Shown one piece after another: positions 9,751-43,956 of a stretch of DNA of 43,956 nt (positions are counted from its first letter, which is position 1; every line of letters starts with the position of its first letter). Source of the DNA: Planctomycetaceae bacterium (GTDB lineage: Bacteria > Planctomycetota > UBA8742 > UBA2392 > JABWBM01); contig JABWBM010000029.1 in the NCBI GenBank assembly GCA_013360495.1, forward strand, positions 1 through 43,956. Direction: 5' to 3'. The translations under genes and the position numbers were made by a program. The notes below the pieces were generated by a model. The model was not told the origin of the DNA, did not search any database, and saw nothing but the letters and a program-made list of their open reading frames with translations.

Positions 9751-10251
9751 ATGCTCGGCTCCGTTGCCAGTCTCGTCGCCTCGCTCACGCTCATCGTGCT
9801 CCCGGTAAGCGCACCGTGCGTGTGCCACAGCTTCACGTTCTTCGGCGGCCTGCGGTGTAGCGCTGCGGGCGGCGGGAATTGCGAGGAACAAGCGAACGAA
9901 GTGGAACAGCAATGCTGCAGTCATTGCGGGAATGCCGCTCAATCGAATGCGGGCTCAGACCCGGTTCCCTTGAGTTCAGGCAACCCGTGTGAACATCAAG
10001 GACATGCCCCCAATCCTCATTGCCCCAATTCGAAGCACCCGGAAATTCACAGCCTCACGCTTCTCCAGCCCGCGCCAATGGCATTGATCGACGTAACACG
10101 AACAACCGGCAACGATACTGCACGATTCGTTTTGCTGGTCTTTTCCGCCTCATTCTCTTCTCCCGTGACAAACGCTTTGCGCCATGACAGCGCGCGCATC
10201 CTCGCCCCGCCACCATTGCGATTCATCGAGCCGGTCCGGCTGTTAATCTGA
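9751..10251 (+). CDS. Cys/His-rich exported protein of the metal-associated cluster
   Basis: The 166-residue product has a signal peptide (MLGSVASLVASLTLIVLPVSA) and then clustered cysteines and histidines: CVCH, NCEEQ, CCSHCG, CEHQGH and HCPNSKH. The C-terminal part has a second hydrophobic run (FVLLVFSASFSS) and ends PPPLRFIEPVRLLI. Exported Cys/His-rich proteins of this size are often found beside metal-efflux genes, and the next genes encode an outer-membrane protein and an HMA protein, so metal binding or sensing is inferred. I cannot name the family. The start is fixed by the signal peptide; a TATAAT lies directly upstream and there is no ribosome site. Confidence 0.55.
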   Translation: MLGSVASLVASLTLIVLPVSAPCVCHSFTFFGGLRCSAAGGGNCEEQANEVEQQCCSHCGNAAQSNAGSDPVPLSSGNPCEHQGHAPNPHCPNSKHPEIHSLTLLQPAPMALIDVTRTTGNDTARFVLLVFSASFSSPVTNALRHDSARILAPPPLRFIEPVRLLI

Positions 10252-10416: not shown

Positions 10417-11331
10417 ATGACTCATCGTCACTGAATCGTCCGGGGGGCGCTGCTCCTCATCGCCGTGGCGGGTCTCGCCGCGAATCTCTCCGCCCATGAA
10501 ACGCTCTTCGGGCGCGGGCCGCGCACCATGTGGAAGGGCGGCTTCGAACTGGAAATGGAGACCATGTTCGAGCAATCGAAGCGTTTCTACGAGGGCGACA
10601 ACACCGTCGCCAACCCTGACAACATGCGCATGTATGAAGCCACGTGGTCACCAGGGATAACCTACGGTGTGACGCGAGACTTCGCCGTCAAAGCGGAATT
10701 TCCCTTCATGTACGGCGTGATGACGGGCGAGTCCATGGGCCGCCACTCTCTCCTGAGCATCGGCAACTGGGAGGTGGGCGCCGCCTATCGCATCGATCCT
10801 TTGATCTTCGGTGGACCGCTGGTGTTCGAGGGAGGGAGCTGCCAGCTTCGTCTCTTTGGAAAGGCCGAACTGCCGACGGCTCCGGAACGGGAGAACGGCA
10901 TCAGCTTCGGCGAGGAGACCTTCACCTTCCTCGGTGGCGGCGCCATCGCCATTGGCACGGCGCGCCATTACTTCTGGGGCGAGGTGTCGGGCGACATCTC
11001 AACGGAAAAGGACGGCACGGGCATGGGTCCCGCGCTGCAGTCCCACGCCGCCTATGCCTGGCGCATCCAGGAGCTCAAGGACTACCGCGAGCTTGACATC
11101 ATCCTGCTCTTTGAACTGGACGTAGAGGCGCGCTCGAAGGGAACGATGAACGGCGATGACGACCCGGACAGCGGGCATTTCACCACGTACCTCGGGAGCG
11201 GTGTTCAGGTCAACTTCACCAACCTGATCTCGCTCAAGACCGGCTACAACGTTCCGCTCTACCGGCGCTACAACGGCGTGCAGTTGGCGGATGATGGCAC
11301 GTTCATGCTGATGTTCAGTTATTTGTTCTAG
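10417..11331 (+). CDS. Outer-membrane protein of metal-efflux type with an in-frame UGA in its signal peptide
   Basis: The ATG at 10417 follows a good ribosome site (AAGGAT). It opens MTHRH, then TGA at 10432-10434, then in the same frame IVRGALLLIAVAGLAANLSA. That is a complete basic-hydrophobic signal peptide if the TGA is read as an amino acid. The mature part (HETLFGRGPRTMWKGGFELEME...) has alternating beta-strand pattern and ends in the aromatic MLMFSYLF typical of outer-membrane beta-barrels. It resembles the transporter-like proteins beside RND metal-efflux genes. The TGA may be recoded, as proposed for the neighbouring HMA gene, or may be a nonsense mutation or sequencing error. Starting at the GTG at 10465 would delete most of the signal peptide. 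The mature frame is intact for about 280 codons, so it does not look decayed. Confidence 0.6.
10467..10479 (+). promoter_or_regulatory. Possible SECIS-like hairpin after the outer-membrane gene UGA
   Basis: GGCG-GGTCT-CGCC can form a 4-base-pair hairpin whose loop starts 36 bases after the UGA and contains GGUC, as in the E. coli fdhF SECIS loop. The stem is short and the spacing is at the edge of the usual range; G+C-rich sequence gives such hairpins by chance. Confidence 0.2.
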
Positions 11332-11332
11332 G

Positions 11333-11405
11333 CGTAGCGTCACGCGCCCTCGCGTGACGAACCAATCAAAAGATACAACGTCACGCGAGGGCGCGTGACG
11401 CTACG
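11333..11405. repeat. Perfect 27-bp inverted repeat of the GTAGCGTCACGC family
   Basis: The arm at 11333-11359 (CGTAGCGTCACGCGCCCTCG...) is repeated exactly in reverse complement at 11379-11405, with a 19-base loop. It begins two bases after the outer-membrane gene stop. In RNA it would form a very stable hairpin between this gene and the HMA gene and may attenuate or stabilise the transcript; no T run follows. Confidence 0.75.
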
Positions 11406-11423: not shown

Positions 11424-11813
11424 ATGCAACGCTTTCAACATACGATTCTGATGGCCATGTTCATCGCCGGCTTCGCCGCGTGCATGAATATCTCCGTCGC
11501 GAACATCGATCCGCCCGCGGATCACAAACCCGTTACGAACGTGCCCACCGATCGAGACGCGATATACAAACTCAAAGTTAAGGGCGTGGACTGAGGCGAG
11601 TGAGCGACGGGCCTGATACAGGCTTTTGAATCCCTGGATGGGGTTCGCGAAGTTCGAACGGATATCACCGAGGCGATGGTCTATCTCCGCACGGAACCGG
11701 GAACGGTGCTTGTGTGGGAGGACGTCGCGACAGCCGCCGTGTCCTACGGTTATGGTCTCGCGGCGCTGGAGCTGGCCGACATCCCGTGGGAAAAGCTCTC
11801 GGGCGGCGAGTGA
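11424..11813 (+). CDS. HMA/MerP-like metal-binding lipoprotein with UGA-x-x-UGA in place of CxxC (candidate selenoprotein)
   Basis: Reading from ATG 11424 to TGA 11811-11813 gives 129 residues if two in-frame TGA codons (11592-11594, codon 57; 11601-11603, codon 60) are read through. The N-terminus is a lipoprotein-like signal (FIAGFAAC, Cys20). The rest is a single heavy-metal-associated domain: YKLKVKGVD, [UGA] G E [UGA], ATGLIQAFESLDGVREVRTD, AMVYLRTEPG, then ATAAVSYGYGLAALEL. Against MerP (PGMTCSAC...) both UGA codons fall exactly on the two metal-binding cysteines. The frame is otherwise clean before and after. Two hairpins follow (11611-11623 and 11628-11646). Selenocysteine, or cysteine inserted by a UGA-reading tRNA, is the best reading. 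Independent nonsense changes at just these two codons would be a strange coincidence. The protein probably sits in the periplasm and handles a soft metal with the adjacent outer-membrane and Cys-rich proteins. Confidence 0.75.
11609..11646 (+). promoter_or_regulatory. Candidate SECIS hairpins after the HMA UGA codons
   Basis: Hairpin one is GCCTG-ATA-CAGGC (11611-11623), extendable by two G-U pairs to 11609-11625. Hairpin two is GAATCCC-TGGAT-GGGGTTC (11628-11646), with 7 pairs including one G-U and a loop UGGAU that has G in second place. The loop of hairpin two begins 31 bases after the second UGA. Bacterial SECIS elements lie inside the coding region just after the UGA and usually have a G among the first two loop bases, so this arrangement is compatible. 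Confidence 0.4.
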
Positions 11814-12233: not shown

Positions 12234-12583
12234 CGCCTGAAGCGCTTCTCAGGATTACCTTCGGATTTACGTTGCTCTCGCGCGTTTGGCAGGGGCGTCT
12301 TCACTTCATCAATCTGCTGCAAATCATCTCCGGAAACGCTCTCATACCGGTTCAATGAAAGAAATCGGTTCTTGCCGTCATTCCCGCAAAGGCGCAATGC
12401 GATACGATTAGCGGCAGGAATCTTGTAGCGTCACGCGCCCTCGCGTGACGGACTATGGAAAATGTAGCTTGTAGAGAAGACGCCATGCGAGGGCGCATGG
12501 CGCTACCTCCTTAATCGTATCGCATTGCCCGAAGCGCGTGGAAGCTCCAGCCCCGAAATCCTGCGGCCAGCGAGCGTCCATAG
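12234..12583. other. Spacer between nuoA and a minus-strand gene, with an inverted-repeat element
   Basis: No gene is supported. The stretch contains the element at 12394-12528 and about 150 bases after nuoA with nothing recognisable. Confidence 0.6.
12394..12528. repeat. Inverted-repeat element: 17-bp arms around two opposed GTAGCG cores
   Basis: GCAATGCGATACGATTA (12394-12410) is perfectly complemented at 12512-12528. Inside, GTAGCGTCACGCGCCCTCGC (from 12426) faces a reverse-complement relative ending GGCGCATGGCGCTAC (to about 12506). The outer arms are not related to those of the other elements in the window although the core is shared. Confidence 0.65.
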
Positions 12584-36037: not shown

Positions 36038-39000
36038 ATGCGTTCACGTATCGCGCTGTGCCTCGTTACGTTTGTATCTATTTCACTCAATGTGCTGATC
36101 GCGCAGACGGTTGATAGCGTCCGTGATATCGACGGCGCGACGCCCGCCGGTCTTGGCGGCACATGGAATGTCGAAGGCGACGCGCGCGCGTCGTGCGTGG
36201 TGGGGGATGTGCTCTACCTCGGCGGCTGTTTCACCAAGGTGAACGGCATCGCGTGCAAGAACCTCGCGACGATCAACTTGAAGACCAAGGTCGTTTCAAG
36301 CTGGTGCTCGCATGTGGACGGTGAGGTGTATGCGCTGGCATCCGACGGCGAGAAGATTTTCGTCGGCGGAAAATTCGCGTGTTCCTTTAACACAGGCGGT
36401 GGCGACGCTGCCACCGTCGTCAAGCGCAACAATTTGATCGCTCTTAATAAGGATGGCACAGCCGACCTGCGCTGCCCGGGCGTGGGCGGCGAGGTGAAGG
36501 CGCTCACATGCGCGGGCGGCATTCTCTATGTCGGTGGAAGCTTTCGCCGCGTGGGGAACCAGCCGCGGCAAAATATCGCGTCGATGAAGTGCTCGGGCGA
36601 TGCGAGCGAGGTGATGAAGGTGACGGAGTGGGCGCCCGCCGTTGACGGCGCGGTGCATGCCATCGCCGTGGACGATGAGAGCGGCGACATCTTCATCGGC
36701 GGCGCGTTCGACGCGGTGAATGGTCAGGCGTGCGGGAAGATGGCGGGCTTTACGGCGAGCGGCGCGTGCAAAACCTGGGATCCACAGTTCGACGGCAATG
36801 TGCATGCGATCTGCTTTGGCGGCGATGGCGAGAAGCGCGCGCTCTACACCGGCGGCGAGTTCACCCATGCGCGCGGAAAAGAACGCAATCGCCTTGCGGC
36901 ATTCGTCCCGGGCGAGGAGCGGAGCGGCTGGGCATTGTCGGAATGGAATGTCGGCGCCGATGGCCCGGTGTACGCGCTCGATACATATGAAGACGGCGTC
37001 GCTATCGGCGGCGATTTCGACGAACTCGGCGGCGAGCCTGTGGAAAACGCCGGCATGGCGCAAGGCGCCTCTTATGGTTCCTCGGCTGCGACGTCGTCGC
37101 CCTTCGCGCCGACAACACTGCCGCCACCGGTTGTTCCTCCGACGGTTTCGTCGCTGGTCATCATCCCCGGCGGCACGATTATCATTGCCGGCGGGCCGAC
37201 CGTAATCGCAGTGAGGGTCATCGTATACCCCTTCGGGAAAATCCTGCGGGTTCGACTGAATTCTCCGACGGGGCCGATTCTCGTCTTTAACGCAACGCAG
37301 GATTTCGGCACGCTCAACATTGGACAGACGTCGGCGCCGAGACGTTACTACCTCGTCAACGAGTCCATCTCGAACCAGAACATCAATGTTTCGAATCTTA
37401 TCAAGAACGGTACGAACCCCGGCGATTTCATTTTGAATACAGGAACGTTCGGCACAGGCGGCGTCATTCCCTGGCAGCAGAACAGGTGGTTCGAAATCTC
37501 CTTCGCACCGACGGTCTCCGGTTTCCGAGAGGCCAATGTTCAGTTCACCCACGACGCATTCACGCCGTCATCGCCGTTCAAAATTCATCCGGTGGGGACG
37601 GGGGCTGGAACTTCGGGAAACATAGTCGTTCATGAAACCTCTCCCACAGGAACGATCGTCGTCAATGACTCTCCGCCGGCCAACGGGCGCATCATCGACA
37701 ACATTCCCGTCGGGACGTCGAGCGCCCCACTGCGCCTGTATATTGTGAATAGTGGCGCCACAACGCTTGGCGCATGGGGCTTGCAACTGTCGGGCTCAAC
37801 CCAATTTTCACTGAACTCGGGCACCTTTGGTGGAGACATTCCCCCCGGCCAGAACAAGTGGGTAGAAGTGACGTTCAGTCCGATCAATACCATAACGCAG
37901 ACGGCAACTGTACAGTTCTTCCACAGCGCGGGGAACACATCGTCGCCGTTCAAGATCAATCTTTCAGGGACGGGCATCATACCGAACCCGGGATTAGTGG
38001 TAACGAGCGATGAAACCAATCCGCCAACCGTCATTCCCTACAACGCACCCGCGACGGGCGGACGGGATTTCGGCCAGTGGGCGATCAACATGGGCTCGAC
38101 GCCCTCGGTCACTTTCACCATAACGAATGACGGCACTGGAACGACGACGGTGGGCGTGCCTGCAATCAATGGGGGCAGTGCGGAGTTTCTTATCTCAGCG
38201 CAATCGTTCCCGGCGACGCTTGCGCCAGGCCAAAGCGCATCGTTTACGATCAGATTTCATCCTTGCGACCCGACGCCGGTGCTGACCAAGTCGGTGGAGT
38301 TCACGCACAACGCCACGAATATCGCTCCTTCGCCTTTCAAATTCGCGGTGAGTGGTCAGGGTGTATCGCCAACGGGCGGGGCCGGCGGCCTTCCATCGAG
38401 CTTCTTTTCGACATTTTCAACCACGTCGGCAGGTGGGGAGCTTGGCACACACGTGATTAAAAGGGTCGGCGATATCATTTACGTCGGAGGGAATTTTGGG
38501 GGAACGAATAATCTGTTCGCCCTTGACGTTTGCGCAGGCGGACTTCCGGGTTGGACATCACCGTCGATTGACGGCCCTGTATACGATCTTGTGGTCTTTA
38601 ATGGCCGCGTCTATTTCTGCGGGAGTTTCTTATGGATCAACGGCGAACTCTCTCCGAATCTCGCGTGCGTCGACGCAAACACCGGCGCTTTCGTTCCATG
38701 GATAGATACGGGCACATTGCTGATTTTAGGCGGCGGTGCCGGCGGGACGACGATCTCCTCGTTAACAGCTTCCGGATCGTATATTTATGCTGGTGGACAA
38801 TTTCGTTGGACAATTCCTAACTCCGGAATTTTCTGGGATGGTTTGCTTAAGGTGGATGCTAATACTGGTATTCCGGATTTGAATTTTCCATCAATGCCCT
38901 CGCCATCGTTAGGAAATTGGGTTAACGCCATGACGTTAAGCCCATCCGCGACAGAGTTATTCATCACCGGACGTTTCAATATTGTTGGTACCACACCAAG

Positions 39001-42000
39001 ACAAAACCTCGCAAAAATCACGCTCTCCACCAATGCCGTCAGTACGACCTTTCCGGAAATCATGACCGGCGGCGAAGGCTTTGCGGTTTCCTATCTCAAT
39101 GGAAAAATCTACGTCGGTGGAACATTTACGGATGTCACCGGCCCTGTTGACCCGAGCGGACTCATAAAAATCGACCCCGCCACTGACACCGTCGAAAACT
39201 GGAACGCGAATCTCGGTGGAATGCAGACGGTCAAAGCGATTAGACGACAAAGCGGGATGATCTTTATTGGCGGCGATTTCGATTCCGTGGGCGGGCTGTC
39301 CCGACTCAATCTCGCAGCGGTGGACGAAATCGACGCATCGCCGGAATACTGGAATCCGGAAGCCACCGGCGGCGCGGTCAACGCGCTTGAATTCGGGAAT
39401 GCAGCGCTTTTTGGCGGTGGACACTTCACCGACATCAATCAGAATGGTCCCGGTGGTCTTGCAAGATTTCCGTTTCTTTACCCCATAGACCAGCACGTCT
39501 ACGAAGATACCGCGACAGATCCAGAGATAGTCAATGGAGCGATGCCAGCGAACGGCCGCGTCTTTGGGACTTGGAGTCTTGACGATGGCCCGACCCCAGC
39601 ACTCGCTATCGTGGTGAAGAATGAAGGGCTAGGAAAACTCGGGTTAAGTATGCCAATCATCGAATCGGGGGACGCGGCAGATTTCGTTCTCGATACGACC
39701 AGTTTCCCGCAGTTTCTTAATCCGAAATCTTCGGCGTCGTTCACGTTAGCGTTCGATCCACAGTCCGCTGGCTCCAAGCTTATCACCGTTCGTTTTGATT
39801 TCGGTGATTATAACAATCTTTCACCATTTACCTTCCAAGCGAGCGGCACCGGAGCGCTGCCGACGATTCAGGTGACCGACGCCAGTATGAATGTAGTCGT
39901 CAACGGGAGCGCCCCTGTCGGCGATCGCGATTTCGGCGATGTCAATGTCGGTTCGCCTTTCTCTCAGACCATGATCACGATTAAAAATACCGGAACCGTT
40001 CCGTTGCAGCTTGGCGATCCCCAGTTGGATGGCGGAGACACAGACGATTTCGGTATTAATCTATTCGGATTCCAGACGCCGCTTGATCCATCGGATATAG
40101 CGGTATTTTTCATGAATTTTGATCCTCAAACGGTAGGCGCGAAGCTCGTCCAAGTTACATTCACGCACAATGCTTCCAACACGACGACGCCTTTCCGCGT
40201 GCTCTTCGGCGGCAACGGTATCGGTCCCGCGGTTCCCACACTCAACACCATTGGCAACAAAACAACTTCGGAAAATACGCTGTTACAGTTCACTGCATCA
40301 GCCAACGATCCCGATTCGGGCGAGATTCTCCGCTACACAGCAGATGACGGCGCGGGCGGGCCGCTACCCGCAGGCGCCAGCATCAATGCTTACACCGGCA
40401 AATTCACCTGGACGCCCGATTTCAGCCAGGCGCAGGGCAGCCCATACACCGTGCGCGTAACCGTCACTGACTTTGGTGGCCTCTCGGATAGCGAATCGTT
40501 CACCATTTCCGTCAACAATGTGAATCAAGCACCGGTGATCAGTTCAAGCGGCAATCGTACCGTCATTGTCAATCAATTGCTGCAGTTTGACGTGACGGCG
40601 AGCGACGCCGATCCAGGCAACGCTCTCACGTTCTTTTTTAGCAACTTGCCCTCAGGCGCAAGCTTCACGCAAACCGGACCAACGTCAGCGCAGTTTTCGT
40701 GGACTCCCATCGCCGGGCAGGTTGGTGTTTACAGCTATGTCGGTTTGAGCGTTACCGATGACGATCTGTCATCGCCGCTCGATGACACCGACATCATCGC
40801 CATCACCGTCACGACGACGCCGAGCACCGTGATCGCCGCGTCAGGCTCCGGCCAGACGGCCGCAGTGGGCGAGGACTTCACCTCCCCCCTGCGCGCGCAG
40901 GTGGTGAACGTTAACTGCGATCCCGTCGCGGGCGAAACCGTGACCTTCACCGTCACCGGCGGCGCTGCCAATTTTGCGGGGGCATCGTTCACTGCAGCCA
41001 TCACCGACCTCGGCGGCTATGCGACCGCTCCAAGCCTCACCGCGGGTCCTGCGGCAGGGGCGGTCACCGTGACCGCTTCCGTCTTCGGCGGCTCCAGCGA
41101 CGACTTCAATCTCGTGAGCGGTTCGGCCACGGGCGTCGCCGCGCGCGCGACGATCACCAGCGGCCCCGTCACCGTGGGCAGTCCGGTGAGCATCGCGTTG
41201 CAGGCCGTCGACGAGGGCGGCAACGACGTCACCGACTTTATTGCTACCGTTGACGTCGTCATCTCCGGCGCGGGGAACTTCACAGACGAGGTCACGTTCA
41301 TCGCCGCCGATAACGGCTTCAAGGCGCTGACCGGCTACGTCACCTTCCTCGTCAGCGGCAATCAGGAGATCGTGGTCACGCCTCAGTTCATCGGCGGCAT
41401 CGTGACTCAAACCGTCGTCCCCGTGTCAGTTTCCGGCGCGAGCACCATCCGCATTATCGAGGGCGGTGGCGAGGACGTGGCGCGTAATTCCGTGGCCGCC
41501 ACGTTGCCGCGCTATCAGGTGATCGATGCCTATGGCAACGCGGTTGCGGGCGCATCGGTGACGGCGCAGGTGATCGCGGGCGACGCGCAGTTCGCTGAGC
41601 GCGACACAGGCGGTCTCAATTTCCTTGGCACGTCCTACACCACGGCGGCAGATAACGACGGCATCCCGGAAGCGTTCTACATCTACGCCGAGGATGGCTA
41701 TGAGCCGATCGTCGTCGAGCTTTCCTGCCCGGGAACGTCGCCCGTCGAGATGGAGTTCACGCCGGTGGACGCGTTCCCCTCGCCTTACGGCCTGCGCGAT
41801 GGCGCGACGTCGACCATCAGCAGCACGTCCTTCGCGTGGTACAACGGCGCTGCATATGACTCGATCGAAGTCCTCGACCCCGACAGCGGTAACGTGATCG
41901 ATACGCTTGGCGGCTCGGCGGAGAGCTACGTCGCGGGTGGGCTCGAACCCAACGAGCCGGTCGCCATCTTCGTGCGAGGCGTGGTGGGCGGGGTTCCGTC

Positions 42001-43956
42001 TATAGCATCCGGCGTCAATACGGCCTTCGCGCTCTGCCCGACGCCCAGCGCCGCCAATGTCGAGATCGTGCGCGTGTATGCCGACAAGGTGGAAATCCGC
42101 ATCAGCAACTTCCCCAATGCGTTCACTGGTTTTGGAACCGTGGGCGTCGAGCGCGCCTATGAGTCCGACTTTTCCGACGCCTTTGACTTCGGCTATTTCA
42201 ATTCGACGCACATTGTCGACGACCTCGTGGATCCCGCGAAGGAAGCCTATTACCGGGTGCGATTCAAGAACGGCGACGACATCGTCACCGCGACGTATAC
42301 GGCGGGTTCCGTTTCGCCCGATCCGCAACCGGCGGGGATCGTCACACCCACGGGCGAGGACATGCTGCTCTCGCCGGGCCAGCAGCTCGGCCCCATCGAC
42401 GTGCAGGTGGTGGACGAAATCGGCGAGCCGTTCCCAACGGTGACGCCGCTCACCGTGACCTTCGCGGTGGTCGAAGGCTATGGCTCCGTCATCACCGCGT
42501 CGGGTGGTCCCACGGTGGTTACGCAGACTGATATGAGTGGCCTTGCGCGCCTGCCCTTCATCACGGGCATCGCCGATGGCGAATTCGTGATCGACGCATA
42601 CACCATACTCTTTGGCAAGATCGTCAACCTGCGTTTCCACGGCCATGTAGTGAGCGGCCCAGTGAGCGTCGAGGTGATCAGCCCGGGCCCCTTCGCCATG
42701 GACGTCGGCCAAACCTTGAGCGGCATCGAACTGCAAACCTATGACAGCCAGAACACACCCCTCGGCCCGGCCCTGATCGATCTACGCCTCACGCTGCCCG
42801 GCTCGGCCTTCGACACCAACCACCCCGACGTCATCGACGACACCACGGCGCAGGTGACCGCCGACAGTTCAGGCTACGCGCAAGTTCCCGATATCATTGG
42901 GCAGACCCCAAGCGCCGGCATGCTGGTGGCGACGCTGATGCACCCGACAGAGCCGGGGCTGCCGCTCGACACGCTGCCCATTAACTACAGCGTACTATCG
43001 ACGAACATGGCTTCACCCGCCGTGACCAAGCTCGATGGCGACGGCCGCAAGGTGCCGTTTCAGGAGATCGAGGACGAATCCGGCGAGTGCGAGGGCGAGC
43101 ACGCGGGTGCTACGCGCCCCATCGAGGTGCAAGTGACCAACAGCCTCGGCCAGCCCATCGCAGGCGCGACCGTCCATTTCTACGGCTGCGACGCCGATGA
43201 GGCGCAGCCCGAGCGCAACCCCATCGTTCGCCAGCTTCCCTTCGACGCGGGCGAGGAACCCGACGAGCGCGGCAACGACCAGTCCTATCTGCTTGGCGGC
43301 TTCAAAGTCAACGGCGCAGCGTACCCGGTTGCGTATGCCAAGGCTGTCGCGCTCCCCGACGGCAAGGTCGCCGTGATCGGCGGGACGGGCAACGCGAGCA
43401 ACCCAACCGCCGACCTCAAGGGCACCGTGATCATCGACGCCATGGACTGCTTCCTGAGTGCCTATGAACTGCACGATTGCGCGAGTCTCGCCCTCGTGCC
43501 GCGCTATGGCCATCAGGCGCTCTTGCTCGACGACGAGCGCATCCTGATCATCGGCGGCATCGACTCAGCTGGCGGGCCCGCGCCGACGCTGATCTGGGAT
43601 TTCGTCGATAACATCATCACTCCCGTGCCGTCACTCAACGCCGACTGGTCCTTCGGCTCGGCGTTGGTGTATGACAGCGGCGACAAGGCGCTGCTCGTCG
43701 GCGGGCGCACGGCAGCCGGGGCGAACCTGCCATTCGCGGTTTCGATCGACATTTCCAGCGGAACATTCGGCAACGTGGTGTCGCTCACCTCGCCGAATAT
43801 CCGCCGCGAATCGTCGATTGTGTACGACGAATTCAACGACATGGCCTACGTAATCGGCTCGACCGTGGGTTCGACGGATCTGCACAACGTCGCGCGCATC
43901 AACCTCGCGGGCGGTACAACCATTTCCATCACGAACCTGCCCGGTTGGATCCCGCA
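36038..43956 (+). CDS. Giant secreted multidomain protein (propeller, choice-of-anchor D and Ig-like repeats), 3' end beyond the window
   Basis: The frame is open from ATG 36038 to the right edge, at least 2639 residues; AGGAG lies eight bases before the ATG. A signal peptide (MRSRIALCLVTFVSISLNVLIAQ) is followed by a first propeller-like region with repeated VYALA/LYVGG.F motifs (about 30-340). Next come several choice-of-anchor D/ASPM-like Ig domains (PFKI..VGTG, DFGTLNIGQTS, GRDFGQWAIN, GDRDFGDVNVGSP), a second propeller (IYVGGNFGG, YFCGSFLWING, IYVGGTFTDV, IFIGGDFDSVGG), and two Ig/cadherin-like domains (NKTTSENTLLQFTASANDPD, NRTVIVNQLLQFDVTASDAD). Big_1-type Ig repeats follow (AQVVNVNCDPVAGETVTFTVTGG, YQVIDAYGNAVAGASVTAQV), and finally Kelch-like blades (LPDGKVAVIGGTG, DDERILIIGGIDS). 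It is probably an adhesin or surface-layer protein. A sorting domain may lie beyond the edge. Confidence 0.85.
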   Translation, partial: MRSRIALCLVTFVSISLNVLIAQTVDSVRDIDGATPAGLGGTWNVEGDARASCVVGDVLYLGGCFTKVNGIACKNLATINLKTKVVSSWCSHVDGEVYALASDGEKIFVGGKFACSFNTGGGDAATVVKRNNLIALNKDGTADLRCPGVGGEVKALTCAGGILYVGGSFRRVGNQPRQNIASMKCSGDASEVMKVTEWAPAVDGAVHAIAVDDESGDIFIGGAFDAVNGQACGKMAGFTASGACKTWDPQFDGNVHAICFGGDGEKRALYTGGEFTHARGKERNRLAAFVPGEERSGWALSEWNVGADGPVYALDTYEDGVAIGGDFDELGGEPVENAGMAQGASYGSSAATSSPFAPTTLPPPVVPPTVSSLVIIPGGTIIIAGGPTVIAVRVIVYPFGKILRVRLNSPTGPILVFNATQDFGTLNIGQTSAPRRYYLVNESISNQNINVSNLIKNGTNPGDFILNTGTFGTGGVIPWQQNRWFEISFAPTVSGFREANVQFTHDAFTPSSPFKIHPVGTGAGTSGNIVVHETSPTGTIVVNDSPPANGRIIDNIPVGTSSAPLRLYIVNSGATTLGAWGLQLSGSTQFSLNSGTFGGDIPPGQNKWVEVTFSPINTITQTATVQFFHSAGNTSSPFKINLSGTGIIPNPGLVVTSDETNPPTVIPYNAPATGGRDFGQWAINMGSTPSVTFTITNDGTGTTTVGVPAINGGSAEFLISAQSFPATLAPGQSASFTIRFHPCDPTPVLTKSVEFTHNATNIAPSPFKFAVSGQGVSPTGGAGGLPSSFFSTFSTTSAGGELGTHVIKRVGDIIYVGGNFGGTNNLFALDVCAGGLPGWTSPSIDGPVYDLVVFNGRVYFCGSFLWINGELSPNLACVDANTGAFVPWIDTGTLLILGGGAGGTTISSLTASGSYIYAGGQFRWTIPNSGIFWDGLLKVDANTGIPDLNFPSMPSPSLGNWVNAMTLSPSATELFITGRFNIVGTTPRQNLAKITLSTNAVSTTFPEIMTGGEGFAVSYLNGKIYVGGTFTDVTGPVDPSGLIKIDPATDTVENWNANLGGMQTVKAIRRQSGMIFIGGDFDSVGGLSRLNLAAVDEIDASPEYWNPEATGGAVNALEFGNAALFGGGHFTDINQNGPGGLARFPFLYPIDQHVYEDTATDPEIVNGAMPANGRVFGTWSLDDGPTPALAIVVKNEGLGKLGLSMPIIESGDAADFVLDTTSFPQFLNPKSSASFTLAFDPQSAGSKLITVRFDFGDYNNLSPFTFQASGTGALPTIQVTDASMNVVVNGSAPVGDRDFGDVNVGSPFSQTMITIKNTGTVPLQLGDPQLDGGDTDDFGINLFGFQTPLDPSDIAVFFMNFDPQTVGAKLVQVTFTHNASNTTTPFRVLFGGNGIGPAVPTLNTIGNKTTSENTLLQFTASANDPDSGEILRYTADDGAGGPLPAGASINAYTGKFTWTPDFSQAQGSPYTVRVTVTDFGGLSDSESFTISVNNVNQAPVISSSGNRTVIVNQLLQFDVTASDADPGNALTFFFSNLPSGASFTQTGPTSAQFSWTPIAGQVGVYSYVGLSVTDDDLSSPLDDTDIIAITVTTTPSTVIAASGSGQTAAVGEDFTSPLRAQVVNVNCDPVAGETVTFTVTGGAANFAGASFTAAITDLGGYATAPSLTAGPAAGAVTVTASVFGGSSDDFNLVSGSATGVAARATITSGPVTVGSPVSIALQAVDEGGNDVTDFIATVDVVISGAGNFTDEVTFIAADNGFKALTGYVTFLVSGNQEIVVTPQFIGGIVTQTVVPVSVSGASTIRIIEGGGEDVARNSVAATLPRYQVIDAYGNAVAGASVTAQVIAGDAQFAERDTGGLNFLGTSYTTAADNDGIPEAFYIYAEDGYEPIVVELSCPGTSPVEMEFTPVDAFPSPYGLRDGATSTISSTSFAWYNGAAYDSIEVLDPDSGNVIDTLGGSAESYVAGGLEPNEPVAIFVRGVVGGVPSIASGVNTAFALCPTPSAANVEIVRVYADKVEIRISNFPNAFTGFGTVGVERAYESDFSDAFDFGYFNSTHIVDDLVDPAKEAYYRVRFKNGDDIVTATYTAGSVSPDPQPAGIVTPTGEDMLLSPGQQLGPIDVQVVDEIGEPFPTVTPLTVTFAVVEGYGSVITASGGPTVVTQTDMSGLARLPFITGIADGEFVIDAYTILFGKIVNLRFHGHVVSGPVSVEVISPGPFAMDVGQTLSGIELQTYDSQNTPLGPALIDLRLTLPGSAFDTNHPDVIDDTTAQVTADSSGYAQVPDIIGQTPSAGMLVATLMHPTEPGLPLDTLPINYSVLSTNMASPAVTKLDGDGRKVPFQEIEDESGECEGEHAGATRPIEVQVTNSLGQPIAGATVHFYGCDADEAQPERNPIVRQLPFDAGEEPDERGNDQSYLLGGFKVNGAAYPVAYAKAVALPDGKVAVIGGTGNASNPTADLKGTVIIDAMDCFLSAYELHDCASLALVPRYGHQALLLDDERILIIGGIDSAGGPAPTLIWDFVDNIITPVPSLNADWSFGSALVYDSGDKALLVGGRTAAGANLPFAVSIDISSGTFGNVVSLTSPNIRRESSIVYDEFNDMAYVIGSTVGSTDLHNVARINLAGGTTISITNLPGWIP

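Follow-up and report, generated by a model that had tools for sequence, protein, structure and literature searches.

The window (the whole 43,956-nucleotide stretch of DNA analysed here) carries two adjoining genes that yield complete products only when in-frame UGA codons are read through (Table 1). The first specifies a predicted outer-membrane beta-barrel resembling COG4313 channels, with one UGA in its predicted signal peptide. The second, directly downstream, specifies an HMA-type lipoprotein interrupted by two UGAs. Only the lipoprotein gene had been singled out in the original prediction; the probable recoding of the neighbouring channel gene is new.

Table 1. Features of the recoded gene pair (positions are those of the window)
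Feature	Position	Strand	Remarks
Predicted outer-membrane beta-barrel gene, COG4313-channel-like	10417..11331	+	one UGA read in predicted signal peptide
UGA, channel codon 6, in predicted signal peptide	10432..10434	+	
SECIS-like channel hairpin CGUGGCG-GGUCU-CGCCGCG	10464..10482	+	loop 36 nt past UGA; window alone p 0.095
UxxU HMA-type lipoprotein gene	11424..11813	+	frame read through two UGAs
Lipobox Cys20 codon TGC	11481..11483	+	invariant in 16 aligned sequences
UGA1, predicted Sec57	11592..11594	+	in-frame TGA
UGA2, predicted Sec60	11601..11603	+	in-frame TGA
Hairpin HP1 GGGCCUG-AUA-CAGGCUU	11609..11625	+	loop 20-21 nt past UGA1
Hairpin HP2 UGAAUCCC-UGGAU-GGGGUUCG, predicted SECIS for UGA2	11627..11647	+	loop 31 nt past UGA2

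When the two internal TGAs of the lipoprotein gene are translated as selenocysteine (Sec, U), the frame gives MQRFQHTILMAMFIAGFAACMNISV...YKLKVKGVDUGEUATGLIQAFESLDGV...SGGE and is terminated by a further TGA (11811-11813). The product is composed of a lipoprotein signal with a lipobox Cys, a linker and a predicted HMA domain, of which U57 and U60 take the metal-binding places. Compared with the Pfam HMA model (PF00403), the window protein scored 20.3 bits (E 7.3e-4), short of the gathering score of 24.8, which a sister-family protein (L048) exceeded with 31.8 bits; the MerP model TIGR02052 was absent from the 10 NCBIfam matches of the window protein (E up to 10). An AlphaFold2 model built from 16 sequences had an HMA-like fold (pLDDT 82.7), and a Foldseek search of the PDB with this model placed copper chaperones best, with CopZ (6ff2) at rank 2 and MerP (1osd) at rank 6, HMA domains of metal ATPases also being among the matches. 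The original prediction, that the read-through frame encodes a lipoprotein with an HMA domain and that the TGAs at 11592 and 11601 lie at both metal-binding Cys places, agrees with the frame (lipobox Cys20, linker), with the predicted fold and with the 16-sequence alignment described below; its reading of the lipoprotein as a candidate Sec protein is supported.

To place these codons among relatives, 392 planctomycete genomes were searched with a profile of the lipoprotein family, and 45 matched at E 1e-6. The best match contained two in-frame TGAs in 16 of the 392, namely the genome of the window itself, 14 of the 16 genomes of a sister family and a distant planctomycete (G020); in the remaining 29 matching genomes it had one stop or none. 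The other two sister-family genomes (G010 and G011) gave no match to the lipoprotein family profile. An earlier search for relatives had matched 24 of 99 at E 0.01, and 16 of those 24 best matches likewise had two in-frame TGAs. When the 16 lipoproteins, picked for carrying two TGAs, were aligned, both TGAs fell at the identical two codons, and no variation was seen at the lipobox Cys or at either U. The homologues that the original prediction called for therefore exist, with UGA at both places in 15 further genomes. Seen in the window alone, two stops in a short ORF of a draft assembly could be attributed to a pseudogene or a sequencing error, an explanation of negligible probability given the identical two codons in 15 further genomes and the covariation of the hairpins that follow them (see below). 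The twin TGAs are thus real and not a product of chance, since the same gene with both of them recurs in the sister family and in a distant planctomycete, and the lipoprotein shows the hallmark of a selenoprotein: an in-frame UGA that is conserved, in 16 sequences, where a functional Cys would stand.

A Cys form of the UxxU lipoprotein was not found in the order, where Cys/Sec pairs were seen only with other HMA proteins. Genome G048 has a Cys-type lipoprotein that matched weakly (E 2.1e-4), and no match to the channel profile. In a protein database the family profile gave seven matches, of which five stop just before UGA1 (P0003-P0007), one begins past UGA2 (P0002) and the last (P0008) is a Cys-type two-HMA protein; since only fragments of UxxU lipoproteins were recovered in this way, similar genes may be hidden. 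Single-protein searches in which Cys was put in place of Sec rendered 48 candidates, none at E 0.001, and 59 stretches, none of them related. Matches to a DNA pattern in Opitutaceae, Nioella, Bifidobacterium and Alphaproteobacteria (4 of 18 stretches) were dropped because no HMA-like frame was present there.

The recoding would be local, as had been proposed: elsewhere in the window TGA is a normal stop, closing frames of at least 250 codons 22 times, a count in which overlapping frames were left. In the host genome, a 3.42-Mb draft that is 91.8% complete, the cut-off was passed by selA with 558.5 bits and by selB with 345 bits; of selC, a contig end retains the 3' half of a tRNA-Sec-like gene, and a search of this incomplete assembly for selD found none over the cut-off. 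In the sister family, SelD was over the cut-off in all 16 genomes, every best match having one in-frame TGA, and a tRNA-Sec with a TCA anticodon was found in 15 of the 16. Of the machinery that the original prediction proposed to look for, the host assembly thus has selA, selB and a part of selC, and selD and selC are present in 16 and 15 of the 16 sister genomes, respectively. The tRNA-Sec genes were located by a sequence pattern because the Rfam tRNA-Sec model matched ordinary tRNAs, also in all 14 control genomes; in the window itself, the Rfam scan rendered one ordinary tRNA.

These results also bear on whether UGA might specify another residue, be it Cys through a tRNA-Cys with a UCA anticodon (the alternative decoder named in the original prediction), Trp through near-cognate readthrough, or whatever a general reassignment would dictate. 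The first UGA places do align with Cys of other HMA proteins, and a Trp would fit well into the channel's signal peptide; however, the tRNA-Cys found has the anticodon GCA, the TCA tRNA-Sec is present in 15 of 16 sister genomes, and TGA acts as terminator not only of the long window frames just mentioned (overlaps unfiltered) but also of 8 of 15 channel genes, all of which makes any such decoding very improbable.

The 69 bases that start at UGA1 align without gaps in the 16 sequences and form two consecutive hairpins, HP1 (columns 18-24 with 28-34) and HP2 (columns 40-44 with 48-52), both of which RNAalifold finds unprompted. In the 16 sequences, 93.9% of the cells were paired, both sides had changed in 5 pairs, and the covariation score of 0.256 was matched by none of 500 shuffles, slid registers giving 0.04-0.10. 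Adding three distant loci (19 sequences) left 92.6% of the cells paired and raised the changed pairs to 7 and the score to 0.358, again matched by 0/500 shuffles. Compared with synonymous-codon shuffles, the mean z was -2.85 for the joint region, -2.40 for HP1 and -2.63 for HP2, while five control places in the same lipoprotein genes ranged from -0.47 to +0.27. When the window was considered alone, 0/500 synonymous shuffles were as stable as HP2; neither HP1 (p 0.138) nor the joint region (p 0.134) was better than such shuffles, and simple folding rendered z values of -0.50 to -2.24.

According to an excerpt of the published bacterial SECIS model (PMC13188914), the loop has 3-9 nt with a G in its first two places, the stem has 4-16 bp, and the UGA-to-loop distance is 16-37 nt. 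Judged by loop, stem, loop G and spacing (the energy rule (iv) was left out), a fitting hairpin followed UGA2 in 16/16 sequences, with single p values of 0.005 to 0.155 and a combined value of 1e-8 that overstates the case because the sequences are related. Loop columns 45-46 of HP2 have a G followed by G or U in 19/19 sequences, and the required spacing is likewise kept in 19/19, whereas HP1 agreed with the model for UGA1 in 7/16. In the locus of G037, which has Cys at place 1 and UGA at place 2 only, HP2 is retained. HP2 is therefore the predicted SECIS element of UGA2, which we infer it to serve; HP1 may serve UGA1.

The channel gene starts at ATG 10417, and its predicted signal peptide with the first mature residues (MTHRHUIVRGALLLIAVAGLAANLSA-HETLFG, signal peptide at 10417-10494) includes the UGA. 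The barrel was modelled with a pLDDT of 79.4, and its best Foldseek match was the COG4313 channel of PDB 4rl8 (TM 0.70 by query length, 12% identity). A TGA in the signal peptide is present in 12 of the 15 channel genes of the order (the window's own and those of 14 sister genomes) and absent in L048, L057 and L058; the channel profile search accordingly rendered one TGA in 11/14 sister genes and none in three, the match in the window starting right past the TGA. Its presence is kept but its exact place is not, since the UGA and the mature His are 16 codons apart in nine genes, against 10 codons in two others and 21 in the gene of the window. In-frame stops other than this UGA were absent from the 15 channel genes of the order. 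Conservation of the channel UGA is therefore strong.

A hairpin that fits the SECIS model follows the channel UGA in 11 of 12 genes, nine of them with a CGUG loop, and none was found in L047. Four of the 12 reached p < 0.05, with a combined value of 1.6e-4 over what are related sequences; as controls, four offsets gave combined p values of 0.89, 0.03, 0.99 and 0.25, and the three genes lacking the UGA gave 0.33. A looser test of the whole region also placed 4/12 genes at p < 0.05, two genes folding worse than their shuffles. A SECIS element for the channel UGA is thus moderately supported. The three of 15 channel genes that have no UGA count against the reading as a Sec codon. The moderate hairpin support and a GTG in the window 11 codons past the UGA (10465, ORF 10465-11331) would suit another arrangement, in which the UGA goes unread and closes a short leader peptide, the channel starts later, and the lipoprotein is the sole selenoprotein. 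Such an arrangement is, however, quite unlikely: L059 and L060 have only 9 codons between the UGA and the mature His, in L051, L054 and L056 the first ATG, GTG or TTG past the UGA is a GTG halfway along the hydrophobic stretch, the positively charged beginning of the signal peptide is encoded ahead of the UGA, and in many genes the channel start follows purine-rich bases that resemble an SD.

The channel and lipoprotein genes adjoin in 14 sister-family genomes. The three-gene cluster of the original prediction is therefore upheld for these two, which form a conserved unit, and not for the ORF at 9751-10251, which lies outside it and matches no family. This ORF, upstream of the channel gene, is rich in Cys and His, has a hydrophobic start and rendered no Pfam or NCBIfam match. 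Between the two conserved genes, the window has a perfect 27-nt inverted repeat (11333-11405) with related copies at 12425, 12481 and 13171, which suggest an interspersed repeat; farther on, an open frame of 2639 codons (36038-43954) runs off the window end.

At least 7 of the 14 sister loci (L047, L049, L050, L052, L053, L057 and L060) have a gene for a MerR-type regulator ahead of the channel gene, and none was seen among the five ORFs scanned upstream in the window. The regulator of L049 scored 124.4 bits with the mercury MerR model (cut-off 150.85, not reached) and 122.7 with a zinc regulator model. All 14 sister loci have an additional HMA gene downstream, of CxxC type in nine, UxxC in four and UxxU in one; a search within 8 kb in the window found no such gene. 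In L058-L060, more UxxU-type HMA genes lie about 1.0-2.0 kb past the UxxU gene, with UxxU (GATUxxU) or UxxxU (GMSUGIKU) spacing. In the second HMA genes with U of the sister genomes, no hairpin clearly surpassed its shuffled versions.

Outside the order, five genomes matched the channel profile. An HMA lipoprotein gene follows the channel gene in four of them, with UxxU in G020, G039 and G055 and CxxU in G037; none was seen after the channel gene of G043. In G055, a MerT-HMA fusion is encoded upstream of the pair, and the channel gene has an in-frame TAG. MerT was found in 0/17 genomes of the order, and MerA over the cut-off in 0/19 genomes, 15 of them in the order. A mer operon was consequently rejected for the order (MerT 0/17, MerA over cut-off 0/15), and a role in mercury handling is suggested by the distant relative G055 only.

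Taken together, these observations make it probable that all three UGAs of the gene pair specify Sec, that two selenols of the lipoprotein would hold a soft metal, and that synthesis of the channel would require selenium. SelB with Sec-tRNA would read UGA2 through HP2, and UGA1 may be read either through HP1 or by the same complex as UGA2. The lipoprotein, for which a signal peptide is predicted, would be exported and lipid-anchored; its affinity for Hg(II), Cu(I) or another soft metal of this kind would exceed that of a CxxC site, and it would act like MerP or CopZ with selenols in place of thiols. The channel may be its partner and carry the metal, or a ligand of the metal, through the outer membrane. 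Since a MerR-type gene precedes the pair in several sister genomes, transcription would be induced by metal, and translation would depend on selenium.

A Sec-containing UxxU lipoprotein might instead work in redox chemistry, its two Sec forming a diselenide that reduces extracytoplasmic disulfides or peroxides, in which case metal binding would be secondary. UxxU and UxxC are known in thioredoxin-like and Prx-like selenoproteins, as excerpts of PMC2398784 and PMC9312934 describe; the fold predicted here is nevertheless HMA, not thioredoxin, and the lipoprotein gene is adjoined by MerR-type regulators and further HMA genes in sister genomes and by the MerT-HMA fusion in G055, so that a primarily redox role seems unlikely.

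Within the preferred soft-metal reading, the Sec of the channel should be cut off with the signal peptide on export, and it is therefore read as a selenium gate. Lacking Sec-tRNA, the ribosome would halt at codon 6-13 and no channel would be made. More tentatively, and with a probability that we place a little short of even, the channel UGA might be a disposable password, served by its own SECIS, decoded only when Sec-tRNA is at hand and then cleaved off, so that the channel would appear only when its partner can be made, the tandem SECIS hairpins decoding the partner's two UGAs.

The predicted lipid-anchored UxxU site was encoded by UGA wherever it was seen in the order (15 genomes), and it would allow the gain of two selenols over two thiols in soft-metal capture to be measured. 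With its UGAs nine bases apart and a pair of covarying hairpins after them, the lipoprotein gene offers a natural test of how SelB acts when Sec codons lie close together. No catalytic purpose is evident for a Sec codon that lies in a signal peptide; if that of the channel is read, UGA recoding would serve there as a nutrient gate and not for placing a reactive atom. No paper that treats Sec within bacterial signal peptides, or this UxxU lipoprotein family, came up in the literature search; either subject might be mentioned by Haft and Gwadz (2023) or by Haft and Tolstoy (2025).

UxxU metal-binding selenoproteins as such are known already. The remark in the original prediction that selenoproteins of the HMA/MerP type may have been predicted before was correct, since the family NF041115 (UxxU_metal_bind, metal-binding (seleno)protein) exists and is listed, in excerpts of PMC9312934 and PMC13188914, as a putative mercuric reductase with UxxU and two Sec. 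Both it and the window lipoprotein are HMA-like with UxxU at the metal-binding places; however, the window protein covers 31 of the 74 model positions with 20.5 bits (cut-off 95), and it further differs as a lipoprotein that has a linker and whose gene is conserved beside that of a channel. Judged by cut-offs, it would thus fall outside both NF041115 and TIGR02052. With NF045683 (MerT/CopZ fusion-like heavy metal transport selenoprotein) and a GOS selenoprotein listed as MerP, it would share the use of Sec in proteins named for heavy-metal transport, but it has no MerT fusion and no NF045683 match. The partner channel resembles the COG4313 channel 4rl8, its best structural match, yet the two are only 12% identical, and to our knowledge no signal-peptide UGA has been described in the COG4313 family. 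The likeness to MerP and CopZ lies in the predicted fold; in an order where neither MerT nor MerA was found over the cut-off, the window lipoprotein differs from them by a lipid anchor and by predicted Sec at both metal-binding places.
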